From positions 124,001 to 188,000 of the forward strand of contig NZ_JADNQZ010000059.1 in assembly GCF_015709515.1 (NCBI RefSeq): a stretch of DNA of 64,000 nucleotides, written 5' to 3'. Of the stretch, positions 4,839 through 48,773 are shown piece after piece. Numbering within the stretch: the stretch's first letter is position 1; each line of letters begins with the position of its first letter. This DNA comes from Methylocystis sp. H62 (GTDB lineage: Bacteria; Pseudomonadota; Alphaproteobacteria; Rhizobiales; Beijerinckiaceae). The notes under the pieces were generated by a model that was not told the origin of the DNA, made no database searches, and worked only from the letters and a program-made list of their open reading frames with translations. The translations under genes and the position numbers were made by a program.

Positions 4839-6815
4839 ATGTTGGACGCGCGACGCAAATCATTCTCGTCGATCCTGAGCGCACTCATCGCAATCGCCGC
4901 CACCCTCGCTTACGCGCAAACGGCGCCCAAGCCTGCGACGGAAGCCACGAAGTCCGCCAATCGGGCCGTATTGCAGAGCCTGAATTTCGACGACCGTGAA
5001 GATTTTGACAACGCCGCGCGCGGTCTCATCGCCAAGCCCGACTCGCTGACGATCAAGGACGCTTCGGGCAGGGTCGTCTGGGACATGGAAAGCTTCAAGT
5101 CCTTCATCGTCGACAAGCCAGCGCCCGATTCGGTCAATCCGAGTCTTTGGCGCAATGCGCAACTCAACATGCATTACGGCCTATACAAGGTTCACGACCG
5201 CATTTTTCAGGTCCGCGGCTATGATTTATCGAACATAACTTTCATCAGAGGCGACAAAGGCTGGATTGTCTTCGATCCGCTGATCTCGACCGAAACCGCG
5301 AAGGCCGCCTTCGAGCTCGTCGCGCAGAACCTCGGCAAGCGTCCGATCGTCGCCGTCGTCTACAGCCACTCGCATGTCGATCACTACGGCGGCGCGCGCG
5401 GCATCGTTGATGCAGCCGATGTGAAGGCGGGCAAGATCCAGGTTCTCGCGCCGGAACATTTTGCTGAACATGCGGTGAGCGAAAACGTCATCGCCGGCAA
5501 CGCCATGAGCCGCCGCGCGATCTTCATGTATGGCGCGATGTTGCCGCGCGACGAACGCGGCAGCGTGGGCGCAGGACTGGGCCAGACTACGTCGACCGGC
5601 GTCATATCGCTCATTTTGCCGACGCGCGAGATCAAGAAAACCGGCGAGACCGTCACGATCGACGGCGTGCGCATGGTCTTCCAAATGACGCCGGGCACCG
5701 AGGCGCCGGCCGAGATGAACACCTATTTCCCGCAGTTCCGCGCGATGTGGATGGCCGAGAATGCGACCAACACGATGCACAACATTCTCACCTTGCGCGG
5801 CGCTCAGGTGCGGGACGCGCTGAAATGGGCGCGTTACCTCGATGAGACGATCGATCTTTTCGCGGACAAGATCGACGTCAAGTTCCAGAGCCATCACTGG
5901 CCGCTCTGGGGACGAGAAAAGATCGTCGACTATCTCAAGAAGCAACGCGATCTTTACAAATATATTCACGACCAGTCCGTAAACCTGTTGAACAAGGGCT
6001 ACACGGGCGTTGAACTCTCCAACATGATTCAGCTTCCGCCGGAACTCGACAAGACATGGGCCGACCGCGGATATTATGGCTCGCTCAAACACAATTCGCG
6101 CGCGGTCTATCAGCGCTATATGGGCTTCTACGACGGCAACCCGACGACGCTGGACCAGCTACCGCGCGCCGAGGCGGCGAAGAAATACGTCGAATACATG
6201 GGCGGCGCGCCGGCGATTTTAAAACGCGCCAGAGCGGATTTCGACAAGGGCGGGTATCGCTGGGTAGCCGAAGCGCTCACCCATGCGGTTTTCGCCGATC
6301 CCAACAATAAGGAAGCCAAGGATCTGCTCGCCGACGCCTATGAACAGATGGGCTACCAGGCCGAGTCCGGGCCGTGGCGCGCCATCTATCTGCAAGGCGC
6401 GTTCGAATTGCGCAATGGCGTTCCAGAGTCGGGCGGCCTGAACACGGCAAGCGCCGACACGATCGAGGCGATGCCTCCGGAAATGACGTGGGATTATCTT
6501 GCCGTACGCTTGAACGGACCGAAGGCCGTCGGGAAAAAGCTGATCCTCAATGTTGAGTTCACCGACCTGAAAAAGCTCTACAGGCTGGCGGTCGAAAATG
6601 GCGTGCTGAACTATTCTGACAAGCCAGCTCTCAATCCGGACGCGAAGGCCACGCTCAAAAAATCGACGCTCGATCGGATCGAGCTTGGCCTGCTCACGCC
6701 CGAACAGGCGATCGCCTCGGGAGAGCTGAAAGTCGAAGGCAAGCGCGAGACGTTTGTGGAGTTCGTCGGATTGCTCGACAAGTTCCCGTTCTGGTTCCAC
6801 ATCGTGACGCCTTGA
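4839..6815 (+). CDS. exported linear alkylsulfatase (SdsA-like metallo-beta-lactamase fold)
   Basis: Predicted to hydrolyse primary alkyl sulfates such as dodecyl sulfate to alcohol and sulfate in the periplasm. A signal peptide ends near AATLAYAQTAP. The MBL domain carries the zinc motif HSHVDH around residue 177, and later HHWPLWG. This is followed by the alkylsulfatase dimerisation region (LADAYEQMGYQAESGPWRAIYLQGAFELR) and an SCP2-like C-terminal domain that binds the alkyl chain. Length (658 aa) matches SdsA1/YjcS. The ATG at 4839 is preferred over 4827 because GGAGGGCCGC sits directly before it. Substrate is inferred from the family only. Confidence 0.92.
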   Translation: MLDARRKSFSSILSALIAIAATLAYAQTAPKPATEATKSANRAVLQSLNFDDREDFDNAARGLIAKPDSLTIKDASGRVVWDMESFKSFIVDKPAPDSVNPSLWRNAQLNMHYGLYKVHDRIFQVRGYDLSNITFIRGDKGWIVFDPLISTETAKAAFELVAQNLGKRPIVAVVYSHSHVDHYGGARGIVDAADVKAGKIQVLAPEHFAEHAVSENVIAGNAMSRRAIFMYGAMLPRDERGSVGAGLGQTTSTGVISLILPTREIKKTGETVTIDGVRMVFQMTPGTEAPAEMNTYFPQFRAMWMAENATNTMHNILTLRGAQVRDALKWARYLDETIDLFADKIDVKFQSHHWPLWGREKIVDYLKKQRDLYKYIHDQSVNLLNKGYTGVELSNMIQLPPELDKTWADRGYYGSLKHNSRAVYQRYMGFYDGNPTTLDQLPRAEAAKKYVEYMGGAPAILKRARADFDKGGYRWVAEALTHAVFADPNNKEAKDLLADAYEQMGYQAESGPWRAIYLQGAFELRNGVPESGGLNTASADTIEAMPPEMTWDYLAVRLNGPKAVGKKLILNVEFTDLKKLYRLAVENGVLNYSDKPALNPDAKATLKKSTLDRIELGLLTPEQAIASGELKVEGKRETFVEFVGLLDKFPFWFHIVTP

Positions 6816-45414: not shown

Positions 45415-46026
45415 ATGAGTTTCAGATATGTGACAGCGGCGTCCGCGCTTCTCGCTGTCTTTTTGGCTGGTTGCAACGGGGGGACGCCTCTTCCCGATCC
45501 GAGGCTTAACGGCCGCGACGCCGAATTCATGGCGCTCGCGCCGAAGGCTGGGGTAAGTTCGCAATACGAACGCTACCTCGTCGATTACAAGACGAACGAG
45601 CCGGTCGGTTCGATCATCGTCGATAACCGCTCGAAATTCCTCTATTATACCATGCCGGGCGGCAAGGCTGTGCGCTACGGCGTCGCCACCGGTCAGGACG
45701 CGATGGCCTTCACCGGCCGCGCCTATGTGGGTGGCATGCAGGAATGGCCGCGCTGGATCCCGCCCAAGGACATGCTTGAGCGTTGGCCGCACCTGCAGCC
45801 CACGGCGGACGCCGGCGGTCTGCCGGGCGGTCCCGACAATCCGCTCGGCTCGCGCGCGCTCTACCTCTATCAGAACGGCAAGGATACGCTCTATCGTATC
45901 CACGGCACCAATGAGCCGGACAAGATCGGACAGGCGGTGTCCTCGGGCTGCATCCGCATGCGCGACATCGACGCGATCGATCTCTACACCCGCGTGAAGG
46001 TCGGCACGAAAGTCGTCGTGCTCTAA
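45415..46026 (+). CDS. lipoprotein L,D-transpeptidase (YkuD domain)
   Basis: A 203-residue exported lipoprotein with lipobox AVFLAGC. The YkuD domain carries GSIIVDNRSKFLYYTMPGGKAVRYGVATG and the active site YRIHGTNEPDKIGQAVSSGCIRMRDIDAIDLYTRV, where the His and Cys are the catalytic pair. It likely forms 3-3 cross-links or attaches proteins to peptidoglycan. The ATG at 45415 follows AAGGAG. A strong terminator ends the unit. It is divergent from the HDAC-like gene. Confidence 0.93.
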   Translation: MSFRYVTAASALLAVFLAGCNGGTPLPDPRLNGRDAEFMALAPKAGVSSQYERYLVDYKTNEPVGSIIVDNRSKFLYYTMPGGKAVRYGVATGQDAMAFTGRAYVGGMQEWPRWIPPKDMLERWPHLQPTADAGGLPGGPDNPLGSRALYLYQNGKDTLYRIHGTNEPDKIGQAVSSGCIRMRDIDAIDLYTRVKVGTKVVVL

Positions 46027-46054: not shown

Positions 46055-46095
46055 ACGACGCCCTCCGCCCAGCGCGCGAGGGCGTCGTCTTTTTT
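46055..46095 (+). terminator. Rho-independent terminator after the L,D-transpeptidase gene
   Basis: An 11-base perfect stem (ACGACGCCCTC at 46055-46065, GAGGGCGTCGT at 46078-46088) followed by CTTTTTTT. It isolates the transpeptidase gene from the small peptide genes downstream. Confidence 0.93.
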
Positions 46096-46258
46096 GCCAT
46101 ACGCCGGGCGCAGTCGCGCCGCGCGCCCGCGTAGACCGTGGTTTCGACGCCTCGCCCTGGCATTCGCCAGTGTGCGCTCTCGCACGGCGCCTTGGTAAAG
46201 CGGACCTTAATGTCGCGATTGTTCGCAGGGTGCGGGCGATCGAAGAGGGGGATTGGTT

Positions 46259-46402
46259 ATGCGTCCGACGACAAGCATGGGCTGCTTAGTCCTGGTGGTC
46301 AGCATTCTCTTGCTGGAAGTCGCCGGCGCGGGCGCTTACCTCGCCTCGTCCGCGCAAGCAAAACCCTCGGACCCTTGCTACGGCTATGCGATTTGCCAGT
46401 AA
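46259..46402 (+). CDS. small secreted peptide ending in CYGYAICQ
   Basis: A 47-residue protein with a hydrophobic leader (GCLVLVVSILLLEVAGAGAYL) and a probable signal-peptidase site after SSAQA. This would release KPSDPCYGYAICQ, 13 residues with two Cys five residues apart. A GAGGGGG ribosome-binding site lies 8 bases before the ATG at 46259. The next gene on the strand (46572) encodes a peptide with the same ending. I know of no named family. Possible roles are secreted signal, disulfide-ring peptide or RiPP-like precursor, all inferred. Coding is supported by the synonymous differences between the pair. Confidence 0.6.
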   Translation: MRPTTSMGCLVLVVSILLLEVAGAGAYLASSAQAKPSDPCYGYAICQ

Positions 46403-46429
46403 AAATTATCATTCGGTCGCGCAATTCGT

Positions 46430-46454
46430 GGAACGCGCGCGCGACATTTGCGTT
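46430..46454 (+). promoter_or_regulatory. EcfG-type promoter upstream of the second small peptide
   Basis: GGAAC at 46430-46434 and CGTT at 46451-46454 with a spacer of 16, an exact consensus match. It sits 118 bases before the ATG of the second peptide gene, almost the same distance as in the hdeD-like gene at 12.6 kb. Confidence 0.55.
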
Positions 46455-46571
46455 TCTGTTTTGAAAGGCCGGCGCGCCCAAAATCAATGCTCGAAAGAGC
46501 GGAGACTCGGAGCGCTGCGCCTTTCAAGTTTTTATATCCGTTGCAGCGAGAGGCGGAAGGCTGGGCCTGTC

Positions 46572-46703
46572 ATGCGCAATTTGGTTTTGTACGTTTTGAT
46601 GTTGTTCCTGTTCGCGGCAAGCGTTGCAAGCGCCACGACAATTCTCTCCCGACCGTCGCCCAACGGCGACGATTTTTGCTTTGGATATGCAATCTGCGAA
46701 TAA
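46572..46703 (+). CDS. small secreted peptide ending in CFGYAICE
   Basis: A 43-residue protein: signal peptide MRNLVLYVLMLFLFAASVASA, then a predicted mature peptide TTILSRPSPNGDDFCFGYAICE of 22 residues. Its ending repeats that of the peptide at 46259 (C, aromatic, GYAIC, polar). Of the seven ring codons, Gly, Ala and Ile use different synonymous codons, so the protein and not the DNA is conserved. The ribosome-binding site is only moderate (GGAAGG, 13 bases upstream). The stop abuts the end of the convergent membrane-protein gene. Confidence 0.6.
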   Translation: MRNLVLYVLMLFLFAASVASATTILSRPSPNGDDFCFGYAICE

Positions 46704-47270
46704 TCAGGCGGACCGTTTCTGACGCGCGAGTTCGCGCAAGCGTGCGACGCTGCGCGTCAGCGAGCCTGCTTCAACGCCGATGAACGCTTCTATTCGCCCG
46801 CACATCGCGTCGGCGGTCTGAAAGACGCGCTGTTTGAACGGGGCGACCAGTCGCGCCGCCCAGGCGCGAATTTCGAGGACAACCGAATAGATCTGACGAA
46901 ATCGGTCGATCTGCATCAGCTTGTCCCGGCAGATGTCGAAAAGAAACGACATGACGCCGAGCGCCAGTGTTTTGGCGAGAAGAATCGCCAAAAGTCCCGT
47001 GAACACATGGCCATGCGCGATCAACTCAAAACCAACCAGCTTGGCCGGGATAATCGCGAACGCCGGCGCGATAAATATCGCCAATGTTTTTAGGGGCGTA
47101 AGCGTCGCAACGAAGTCCTTGAACTGCTGTTCGTAACGTTCAAGCCCAAGTGCGCGTCCAAGATCGTGCAACCATGCGCTGAAATGATCCCACAGCCAGG
47201 TTTCGACCAGAAAGAGGACGGCGAGCGCGAACCAGAACGCCTCCCTCAGACGCCGTTTCCAATCTTCCAT
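46704..47270 (-). CDS. hypothetical membrane protein, 188 aa
   Basis: I do not recognise a named family. It has an N-terminal helix (FWFALAVLFLVETWLWDHF) and two central ones (LKTLAIFIAPAFAIIPAKLVGFELIA; FTGLLAILLAKTLALGVMSFLFDI), then a long basic, helical cytoplasmic tail. Start ATG at 47270 follows GGAAGA. It is convergent with the small peptide genes. Similar proteins are common in Hyphomicrobiales with no described role. Confidence 0.75.
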   Translation of the reverse strand: MEDWKRRLREAFWFALAVLFLVETWLWDHFSAWLHDLGRALGLERYEQQFKDFVATLTPLKTLAIFIAPAFAIIPAKLVGFELIAHGHVFTGLLAILLAKTLALGVMSFLFDICRDKLMQIDRFRQIYSVVLEIRAWAARLVAPFKQRVFQTADAMCGRIEAFIGVEAGSLTRSVARLRELARQKRSA

Positions 47271-47348: not shown

Positions 47349-48773
47349 TCACATGTGGATGGCGCGTTTGGCGACGGCGAAGGCCGCTTCGCGCATCGCC
47401 TCCGAGAGCGTCGGATGGGCGTGGCAGGTGCGCGCGAGATCTTCCGCCGAGCCGGAAAATTCCATCAACACAGCAGCTTCAGCGATCAATTCGCCGGCCG
47501 CGGCGCCGACAATATGGACGCCGAGCACCCGGTCGGTCGCGGCGTCGGCGATGATCTTCACGAAACCGTCGGTCGCGCGCATCGCGCGCGCGCGGCCATT
47601 GGCGGTAAAGGGGAATTTGCCGATCGCGACTTCGATCCCTCCGGATTTGGCCTCTTCCTCGGTGATGCCGACCGCTGCGACTTCCGGCATCGTGTAGACG
47701 ACGCTGGGAATGACGCCGTAATTCACATGCCCCGCCTGTCCGGCGAGGATTTCGGCGACGGCGATGCCTTCATCCTCGGCCTTATGGGCGAGCATCGGTC
47801 CGCGCACCACGTCGCCGATGGCGTAGACTCCCGGGACATTGGTCGCGAAGCCGCCGTCGATGACGATGCGTCCGCGCTCCAGGGCGACGCCGGCGTCCTC
47901 GAGTCCGAGGCCCTGCGTGAACGGGATGCGGCCCGTCGCGATGAGCACGGCGTCGGCCTCGATCGTGTCGGATGTCGCGCCATCGACCGACGAATAGGAG
48001 ACGACGGCGCGCTCGGCCTTGCCGGTTCCCTCGCGCCGCACGCCAGTCACCTTGGAGGCGAGCCGGAATTCGAAGCCCTGTTTTTCGAGGATCTTCTGGA
48101 AGCGCGTGGCGATCTCAAGATCGAAGCCCGGCAGAATGCGATCAAGATATTCGATCGCAATCACTTCCGTTCCCAGCCGCCGCCAGACCGATCCGAGCTC
48201 CAGTCCGATGACGCCCGCGCCGACGACGACCAGCCGCTTCGGCGTCTCCGCCAGGGCCAAAGCGCCGGTGGATGAAAGGATCAGCTTCTCGTCGATCGCG
48301 ATCTCCGCGCCGGAGGCGTCGCGCAGCGGCGCGACGGCCGAGCCGGTGGCGAGGACGATGTTTTTCGCTTCCAGCGTCTGAACGGCGCCGTCCGCCCCGA
48401 CGACCTCGACTCGCCCGGCGCCTTTCAGCCGGCCGACGCCGCGAAACGACTCGATCTTGTGTTTTCTAAACAGGAAGGCGACGCCGTTGACGTTCGCGCC
48501 AACGGTGTCGTCCTTGTGCTTCATCATCGCCGCAAGATCGAGGCGCGGCGGATCGACGATGACGCCAAGCGGCGCGAGTCCATGCGCCGCTTCTTCGAAC
48601 ATATGTGAAGCGTGGAGCAGCGCCTTCGACGGAATGCAGCCGACATTGAGGCATGTGCCGCCGAACGTCGAATCCTTCTCGACGACGGCCGTCTTCAATC
48701 CAAGTTGCGCCGCGCGGATCGCGCATACGTAACCGCCTGGACCGGATCCGATCACGATAAGATCGTAGGTCAT
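47349..48773 (-). CDS. lpdA: dihydrolipoyl dehydrogenase
   Basis: E3 flavoprotein of 2-oxo acid dehydrogenase or glycine cleavage complexes. FAD site GSGPGGYVCAIRAAQLG, redox disulfide GGTCLNVGCIPSKALLHASH, NAD site VVGAGVIGLELGSVWRRLGTEVIAIE, FAD/C-terminal YAIGDVVRGPMLAHKAEDEG, and the C-terminal HAHPTLSE active-site His/Glu. At 474 residues it is full length. No E1/E2 genes lie adjacent, so the partner complex is elsewhere. Confidence 0.97.
   Translation of the reverse strand: MTYDLIVIGSGPGGYVCAIRAAQLGLKTAVVEKDSTFGGTCLNVGCIPSKALLHASHMFEEAAHGLAPLGVIVDPPRLDLAAMMKHKDDTVGANVNGVAFLFRKHKIESFRGVGRLKGAGRVEVVGADGAVQTLEAKNIVLATGSAVAPLRDASGAEIAIDEKLILSSTGALALAETPKRLVVVGAGVIGLELGSVWRRLGTEVIAIEYLDRILPGFDLEIATRFQKILEKQGFEFRLASKVTGVRREGTGKAERAVVSYSSVDGATSDTIEADAVLIATGRIPFTQGLGLEDAGVALERGRIVIDGGFATNVPGVYAIGDVVRGPMLAHKAEDEGIAVAEILAGQAGHVNYGVIPSVVYTMPEVAAVGITEEEAKSGGIEVAIGKFPFTANGRARAMRATDGFVKIIADAATDRVLGVHIVGAAAGELIAEAAVLMEFSGSAEDLARTCHAHPTLSEAMREAAFAVAKRAIHM

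Follow-up and report, generated by a model that had tools for sequence, protein, structure and literature searches.

Two very small open reading frames lie next to each other in the genome of Methylocystis sp. H62, and both close, right at the stop codon, on almost the same cysteine-bracketed ending. This raises the question of whether they are genes at all and, if so, what kind of family they belong to, why there are two of them, and what such short products could do. We analysed the locus in its 64,000-nucleotide stretch of DNA, which we refer to as the window, and compared it with related genomes.

The peptide gene pair and its surroundings

The features of the locus are collected in Table 1. 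An initial annotation made from the letters of the window had described two adjacent genes of 47 and 43 codons, and both are present. The first, ORF1, ends on CYGYAICQ and is called Q-type here; the second, ORF2, ends on CFGYAICE and is called E-type. In the seven codons common to both endings there are synonymous differences at Gly, Ala and Ile, and the sole residue change is Tyr/Phe, in agreement with what had been described. In the window genome, the strict motif occurs at two places, i.e., the two ORFs, and at none in the reversed control. The proposed terminator after the upstream gene is plausible from its fold and the U tract behind it, and a simple consensus terminator scan did not list it.

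Table 1. Features at the peptide locus, with positions counted in the window
Feature	Position	Strand	Size or sequence	Remarks
YkuD L,D-transpeptidase gene, upstream neighbour	45415-46026	+		context only; PF03734, E 2e-21
Likely intrinsic terminator	46055-46096	+		between the L,D-transpeptidase gene and the peptide pair; -26.4 kcal/mol, z -5.85, then U6
CRP-like box	46171-46185	+	TGTGC-GCTCTC-GCAC	its GTGCG begins 87 nt 5' of the Q-type ATG
Q-type peptide gene (ORF1)	46259-46402	+	47 codons; MRPTTSMGCLVLVVSILLLEVAGAGAYLASSAQAKPSDPCYGYAICQ	orthologs and profile matches
Predicted EcfG-type promoter	46430-46454	+	GGAAC-N16-CGTT	142 nt 5' of the E-type ATG
E-type peptide gene (ORF2)	46572-46703	+	43 codons; MRNLVLYVLMLFLFAASVASATTILSRPSPNGDDFCFGYAICE	best-scoring profile match of the genome
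F4, convergent neighbour	46704-47270	-	188 aa	no Pfam family; abuts the E-type stop codon
Pyridine-nucleotide-disulphide oxidoreductase gene, probably dihydrolipoamide dehydrogenase	47349-48773	-		context

The L,D-transpeptidase family and the 188-aa F4 family, each present at 15 of 21 compared loci, flank the peptide or peptides in Methylocystis. In the three displayed loci of a second genus, g42, the peptide lies between a XerC-like gene and an F4 gene (both named by eye). Two Methylocystis genomes, G089 and G254, keep the F4 gene near the XerC-like gene and have no peptide, and in G215 and G677 the search with the 188-aa F4 protein found nothing. No cyclase or receptor gene adjoins the pair at the main locus.

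Distribution of the family

Other genomes carry the motif at the C-terminus as well, which goes against the refuting outcome named in the initial annotation, i.e., its absence from every other genome. Its strict form, C[FY]GYAICx-stop, was found in 21 of 298 genomes of the bacterial family, namely 20 of the 25 genomes of the same genus and one of another genus, with none in the reversed control. A profile built from 14 members (A1) gave matches at E<=1e-4 in 33 of 39 same-genus genomes and none in G089, G215, G254, G677 and the partial genomes G680 and G688. The first four of these are at least 90% complete, which argues that the peptide is dispensable. With a profile from 22 members (E<=1e-3, up to 24 first-look candidates scored per genome), the family was found in 32 of the 298 genomes and in two of 43 genera, i.e., Methylocystis (g1; 22 of 25 sampled) and g42 (10 of 10), the latter probably being the methanotrophic relative Methylosinus. 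Divergent copies lie elsewhere in the genomes of G226 (two), G261 (one) and G105 (one, on contig C16), and the only copy of G282 is also of this kind. The two ORFs are real genes of a real, conserved family.

The initial annotation had proposed a search across Hyphomicrobiales, and the distribution seen here is narrower, with members in just two genera of a single family. Of the 397 genomes of the order searched with the profile, 377 belong to other families, and these gave only weak matches without the tail. The four matches concerned (E 0.0036-0.0092) were rejected, since they cover only positions 1-37 of the 43 in the profile and exclude the tail; at most 18 first-look candidates were scored per genome in this search, so a relative may have been missed. 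A looser DNA pattern run over the 397 genomes of the order hit three, i.e., the genome itself, one of the same genus and one with a short frame. The motif scan of a species collection returned 36 stretches, with export-type N-termini only in records of Methylocystis, Methylocystaceae and unplaced Alphaproteobacteria, the remaining stretches being short frames without such an N-terminus. DNA-pattern matches in other phyla and in a Methyloligella record, whose frames have 1-43 codons and no export signal, were discarded as relatives.

Scans of Pfam, NCBIfam, PADLOC and PHROGs gave no credible match. One member of set A2, not among the 10 members re-scanned, matched a PHROG at E 0.0015 (phrog_34725, no function given). 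The best match among PDB sequences had an E value of 0.33 and lay in the signal region, and plasmid records gave no match. In the literature we found no paper with 'GYAIC' and no description of the peptide family. The ending had been said to belong to no described family; none of these libraries or papers contradicts this, and the family is apparently undescribed in the libraries searched.

The conserved tail and the probable export signal

All 65 distinct copies found by the profile at E<=1e-5 end on D-x-C-x-G-Y-A-[ILV]-C followed by 1-6 residues, a count that is to be read with the profile itself having been built from motif carriers. The first Cys is followed by F, Y or L, and once each by A and M, and most copies finish on E, Q or R. 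Because the last residue varies and four genomes have a longer, 6-residue end (e.g., CDQSLSK), a strict C-terminal signal is unlikely. In a set of 48 tails, two (L034, L064) are chance matches, and the invariant columns of this set were required by the search pattern. The linkers between the hydrophobic stretch and the tail are variable.

Synonymous divergence of the tail is high and amino-acid divergence low, with pN/pS at 0.14 for Q-type and 0.08 for g42 copies; these values are partly circular, since the ending decided which rows were used, and one of the Q-type rows, that of G105, has an over-long start. The same choice of rows makes the E-type pN of 0 circular, and the AVC copies of G678 and G679 were left out of it. 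Conservation of the tail over varied codons across two genera upholds the view, already put forward for the pair, that selection acts on the peptide and not on a DNA repeat.

A hydrophobic N-terminal stretch is found in every aligned member. Cleavage motifs were read by eye. In the 19 distinct E-type proteins, a short hydrophobic core leads directly into an (A/S)SA motif; among the Q-type copies, those of Methylocystis show AGAGA or ASAGA together with AxA motifs. ORF1 offers two plausible sites, after AGA to leave YLASS... (21 aa) or after AQA to leave KPSD... (13 aa), and the mature sizes of 1.4 and 2.4 kDa that had been proposed for the pair are therefore uncertain. By the same reading, no clear cleavage site directly follows the hydrophobic stretch in the copies of G105:C16, G282, L101-L103 and g42, and such members may stay membrane-anchored.

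Two copies with different upstream sites

The strongest new result, absent from the initial annotation, is that the two copies carry different conserved upstream sites. GGAAC-N16/17-CGTT is present in 27 of 28 distinct E-type upstream regions, at -105 to -151 and with diverged spacers, and in none of 22 Q-type regions; it occurs in 0.26% of regions resampled with a first-order Markov model, which served as the null for the upstream sites. The regions are distinct, but many come from close relatives, so that these counts are not independent, and the 28 include a G684 region with 215 nt of upstream sequence. The sole exception is that of G684 (L057/L078), which has no EcfG-type site and whose sequence beyond about -90 is unrelated to that of its relatives. 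This copy, on G684:C196, may have been affected by an insertion or by misassembly close to the end of the contig.

The pattern on its own was rejected as evidence, since it is not enriched genome-wide (75 matches vs 105 in the reversed control). GGAAC-N16-CGTT is also at chance level in the window, with 2 found vs 1.19 expected. The weight of the site in Table 1 thus comes only from its conservation among orthologs, and it is on the 27 of 28 regions that the earlier call of an EcfG-type promoter before the second gene now stands. We suggest that the E-type gene is likely an EcfG target. Excerpts of a study on Sphingomonas give the EcfG motif there as GGAAC-N17-20-GTT and name a 'predicted small secreted protein' among the EcfG-dependent genes of Sphingomonas melonis (PMC6599016). 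The present family is like such EcfG-controlled small secreted proteins in its EcfG-type promoter and unlike them in having a fixed Cys loop and in having been found in two genera only.

In the window genome (G000), two of nine NepR-like matches have GGAAC-N16-CGTT upstream in the right orientation, and each of the two is followed by a sigma-factor-like frame. The nine matches, eight of them above the cut-off, point to several paralogs of the stress-response switch. Contigs C40 and C46 of this genome carry the same three EcfG-like matches in mirrored order and with equal spacing, which points to duplication of a large stretch or to a repeat in the assembly.

The Q-type gene has a different site. 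GTGCG-N4-CGCAC lies at -81 to -89 in 21 of the 22 Q-type regions, a set that leaves out one region with 4 nt of upstream sequence, and the remaining region (G287) has a one-base variant at -79; the box occurs in 0.14% of resampled regions. It is carried by nine of 11 g42 copies (0-2 mismatches, -88 to -90) and by the Q-like copy of G017 (one mismatch, -73). Neither G105 copy has it, nor do the divergent copies at L098-L100, L101-L103, L105 and L111. Since the box is common to the Q-type and most g42 copies, most g42 copies are likely Q-type orthologs, the E-type gene being the copy with the other control. We read the pair as having arisen by duplication within Methylocystis, with control split between the copies.

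Extended by one base, to TGTGC-N6-GCAC(A), the box resembles a CRP box. In three genomes TGTGCG-N4-CGCAC exceeds its reversed control (18 vs 3, 13 vs 1 and 14 vs 4), where the counts are of perfect palindromes on both strands, so that the distinct sites are fewer (about 16, 11 and 11) and the controls may be affected alike. An RNA hairpin instead of a DNA site was considered for GTGCG-N4-CGCAC and rejected, the fold z being only -1.31. In all three genomes examined, a full CRP-like box begins 4 nt 3' of the stop codon of a CRP-family gene, whose domains are cNMP_binding and HTH_Crp_2 (domain scan of two of the three genomes). We suggest that the Q-type gene is likely a target of a CRP-family protein.

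At the CRP-family gene L163:807-1640 (G000:C49), and also at L158 and L159, the TGTGC-N6-GCACA box is followed by a small protein without a Pfam family. Several other CRP-like boxes precede small exported-looking proteins (genes called by a simple script). In G177, another tiny ORF that looks exported (L182:12302-12433; 43 aa) closes on CTGEE and has such a box 76 nt upstream.

Extra copies beside nucleotidyl cyclases

Three divergent copies have a cyclase neighbourhood, and two of these three loci are near-identical (96% over 5.3 kb). At G261:C52 and G226:C7, a class III nucleotidyl cyclase starts about 90 nt after the peptide stop; both cyclases have a hydrophobic N-terminal half by eye, and that of G261 matches PF00211. 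At G226:C8 the gene of a small protein separates the peptide from the cyclase downstream. DNA identity between the C52 and C8 loci is 72% in the cyclase region, and of the peptide gene only a 34-bp stretch of the tail aligns, at 91%. The small protein of G226:C8 groups with one in G282 (L111), which in turn has weak similarity to the small protein beside the CRP gene (BLASTP E 0.001).

The nucleotidyl-cyclase-like frame downstream of the peptide copy at G226:C8 (L100:5627-7000) is broken by one in-frame stop. By eye, the cassettes of L098, L099 and L100 adjoin radical-SAM-like, flavoprotein-like and two sugar-transferase-like genes that are shared between contigs.

Discussion

We tentatively favor the view, in which our confidence stays below even, that the family consists of exported disulphide-loop micropeptides acting in stress- and cAMP-linked envelope signalling. 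The hydrophobic N-terminal signal would export the peptide. Once in the oxidising periplasm, the loop D-x-C-(aromatic/Leu)-G-Y-A-(I/L/V)-C-(E/Q/R) would most likely be closed by a disulphide into a ring of seven residues. The Q-type copy would keep the box of a CRP-like cyclic-nucleotide regulator, and the E-type copy would be expressed from a general-stress EcfG promoter. Outside the cytoplasm, the loop could act as a ligand or modulator in an envelope signalling circuit linked to stress and cAMP. We infer the signalling role from the peptide-cyclase loci and from the similarity of the small protein to the neighbour of the CRP gene, and such clues are few. Disulphide-loop signalling peptides of other organisms also have a C-x5-C ring near the chain end, a likeness in the ring only. 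Our literature search on disulphide-loop signals in alphaproteobacteria found nothing relevant.

In a more specific and quite doubtful version, a class III adenylate cyclase embedded in the membrane would have the peptide as its extracytoplasmic ligand. There would then be a feedback circuit from peptide through cyclase and cAMP to CRP, with the ancestral chromosomal copy under the matching CRP-family regulator and a stress-induced second ligand under EcfG. If this is true, each of the extra peptide(-small protein-)cyclase cassettes would form a complete module of the circuit by itself.

Other explanations have to be weighed against envelope signalling. That the ORFs are chance frames or a DNA repeat rather than genes is scarcely credible; they are very short and no annotation of them was seen, but they are conserved over varied codons in two genera and have conserved upstream sites. 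The hydrophobic stretch of every aligned member, and the several members without a clear cleavage site, would also fit a small single-pass membrane protein, in which an uncleaved anchor holds a periplasmic Cys loop that modulates a partner membrane protein, as Blr-type proteins do. Among the weak library matches there are indeed small membrane proteins, including Blr (E 0.16-0.18), far below the cut-off at 11.9 of 27 bits in Pfam and 11.4 of 40 bits in NCBIfam. Blr-type small divisome proteins share the length of about 40 aa and the single hydrophobic stretch, and to our knowledge they have no Cys loop. The cleavage motifs seen by eye in the E-type proteins ((A/S)SA) and the Q-type proteins (AGAGA or ASAGA plus AxA) speak against an anchor, and we consider it a serious candidate that is nonetheless unlikely. 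A secreted, bacteriocin-like antimicrobial peptide is improbable. The peptides are short, have a Cys loop, are duplicated and, in a few genomes, occur on further contigs as well, but no obvious immunity, transporter or modification gene lies beside the conserved locus, the tail is under purifying rather than diversifying selection, and the peptide is present in most genomes of the genus.

The hosts are copper-dependent, and the Cys-aromatic-Gly core could make the peptide a periplasmic metal or thiol ligand, either as a substrate of an MNIO (DUF692) enzyme or as a direct copper binder, like bufferins and methanobactins. Methanobactins (MbnA), made by some methanotrophs, are likewise short and Cys-containing. 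The 14 A1 members, however, gave no match to DUF2282 or methanobactin models at E<=1. With the MNIO-modified, Sec-exported RiPPs (bufferins Buf1/DUF2282 and Buf2, oxazolins and the CxxxxC family), the pair shares a probable export signal and a Cys motif, and it differs from them in its C-x5-C spacing, in having no MNIO gene near the main locus and in the lack of a profile match. According to excerpts of one paper, MNIO precursors usually carry Sec-type signals, a considerable fraction of bufferin genes does not adjoin an MNIO gene, and methanobactin precursors are without a Sec signal (PMC12452194). Of the divergent copies, that of G282 has an MNIO gene at a distance of 3.4 kb and a DUF2282 gene at 2.9 kb, and that of G105:C16 overlaps, at its start region, a truncated DUF2282-like frame (L112, about 5415-5609). 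A weak hhalign match of A2 (probability 21%, P 0.0011), at the first Cys motif of DUF2282, points the same way, as do two CRP-like boxes in G177 that have a multicopper oxidase gene on one side and a bufferin-type operon on the other. On the other side, the MNIO genes of the window genome are on other contigs than the pair, the G282 copy is the only one in the genus search with an MNIO gene within 5 kb, and two peptide-bearing genomes, G057 (99% complete) and G164 (98%), have no MNIO match; MNIO genes as such are present in 33 of 39 same-genus genomes. We keep the copper reading, below envelope signalling, because of the G282 and G105:C16 copies near DUF2282-like genes and the weak hhalign match, and we regard it as rather unlikely. 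In the G177 region (L179:1902-9293), the multicopper oxidase gene is divergent from the operon and the two boxes between them are identical; by eye, the operon has two MNIO genes, a DUF2282-like gene and a DoxX-like gene. As for the methane-oxidising enzyme itself, both peptide-bearing genera hold pmoA-type genes, and a figure legend on the pMMO structure names an unidentified helix (PMC8098663), which the peptide might be. This is very improbable. pmoA-type genes are found in three of 43 genera (g1, g42 and g40), of which two have the peptide. G089, G215, G254 and ten g40 genomes have pmoA and no peptide, G057, G164, G234 and G282 have the peptide and no pmoA match, and a stress-type promoter fits badly. 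No PDB chain sequence matched, in a search to which unassigned chains are invisible. The family follows the lineage rather than the pMMO enzyme.

In soils and wetlands, Methylocystis and Methylosinus are important aerobic consumers of methane. Genes as small as these can be missing from the family libraries searched here even when they are present in most genomes of a genus. The fixed seven-residue loop can be made synthetically. With a likely EcfG target, a likely CRP target and a candidate cyclase partner, the family offers a testable handle on stress and cyclic-nucleotide signalling in these two genera.
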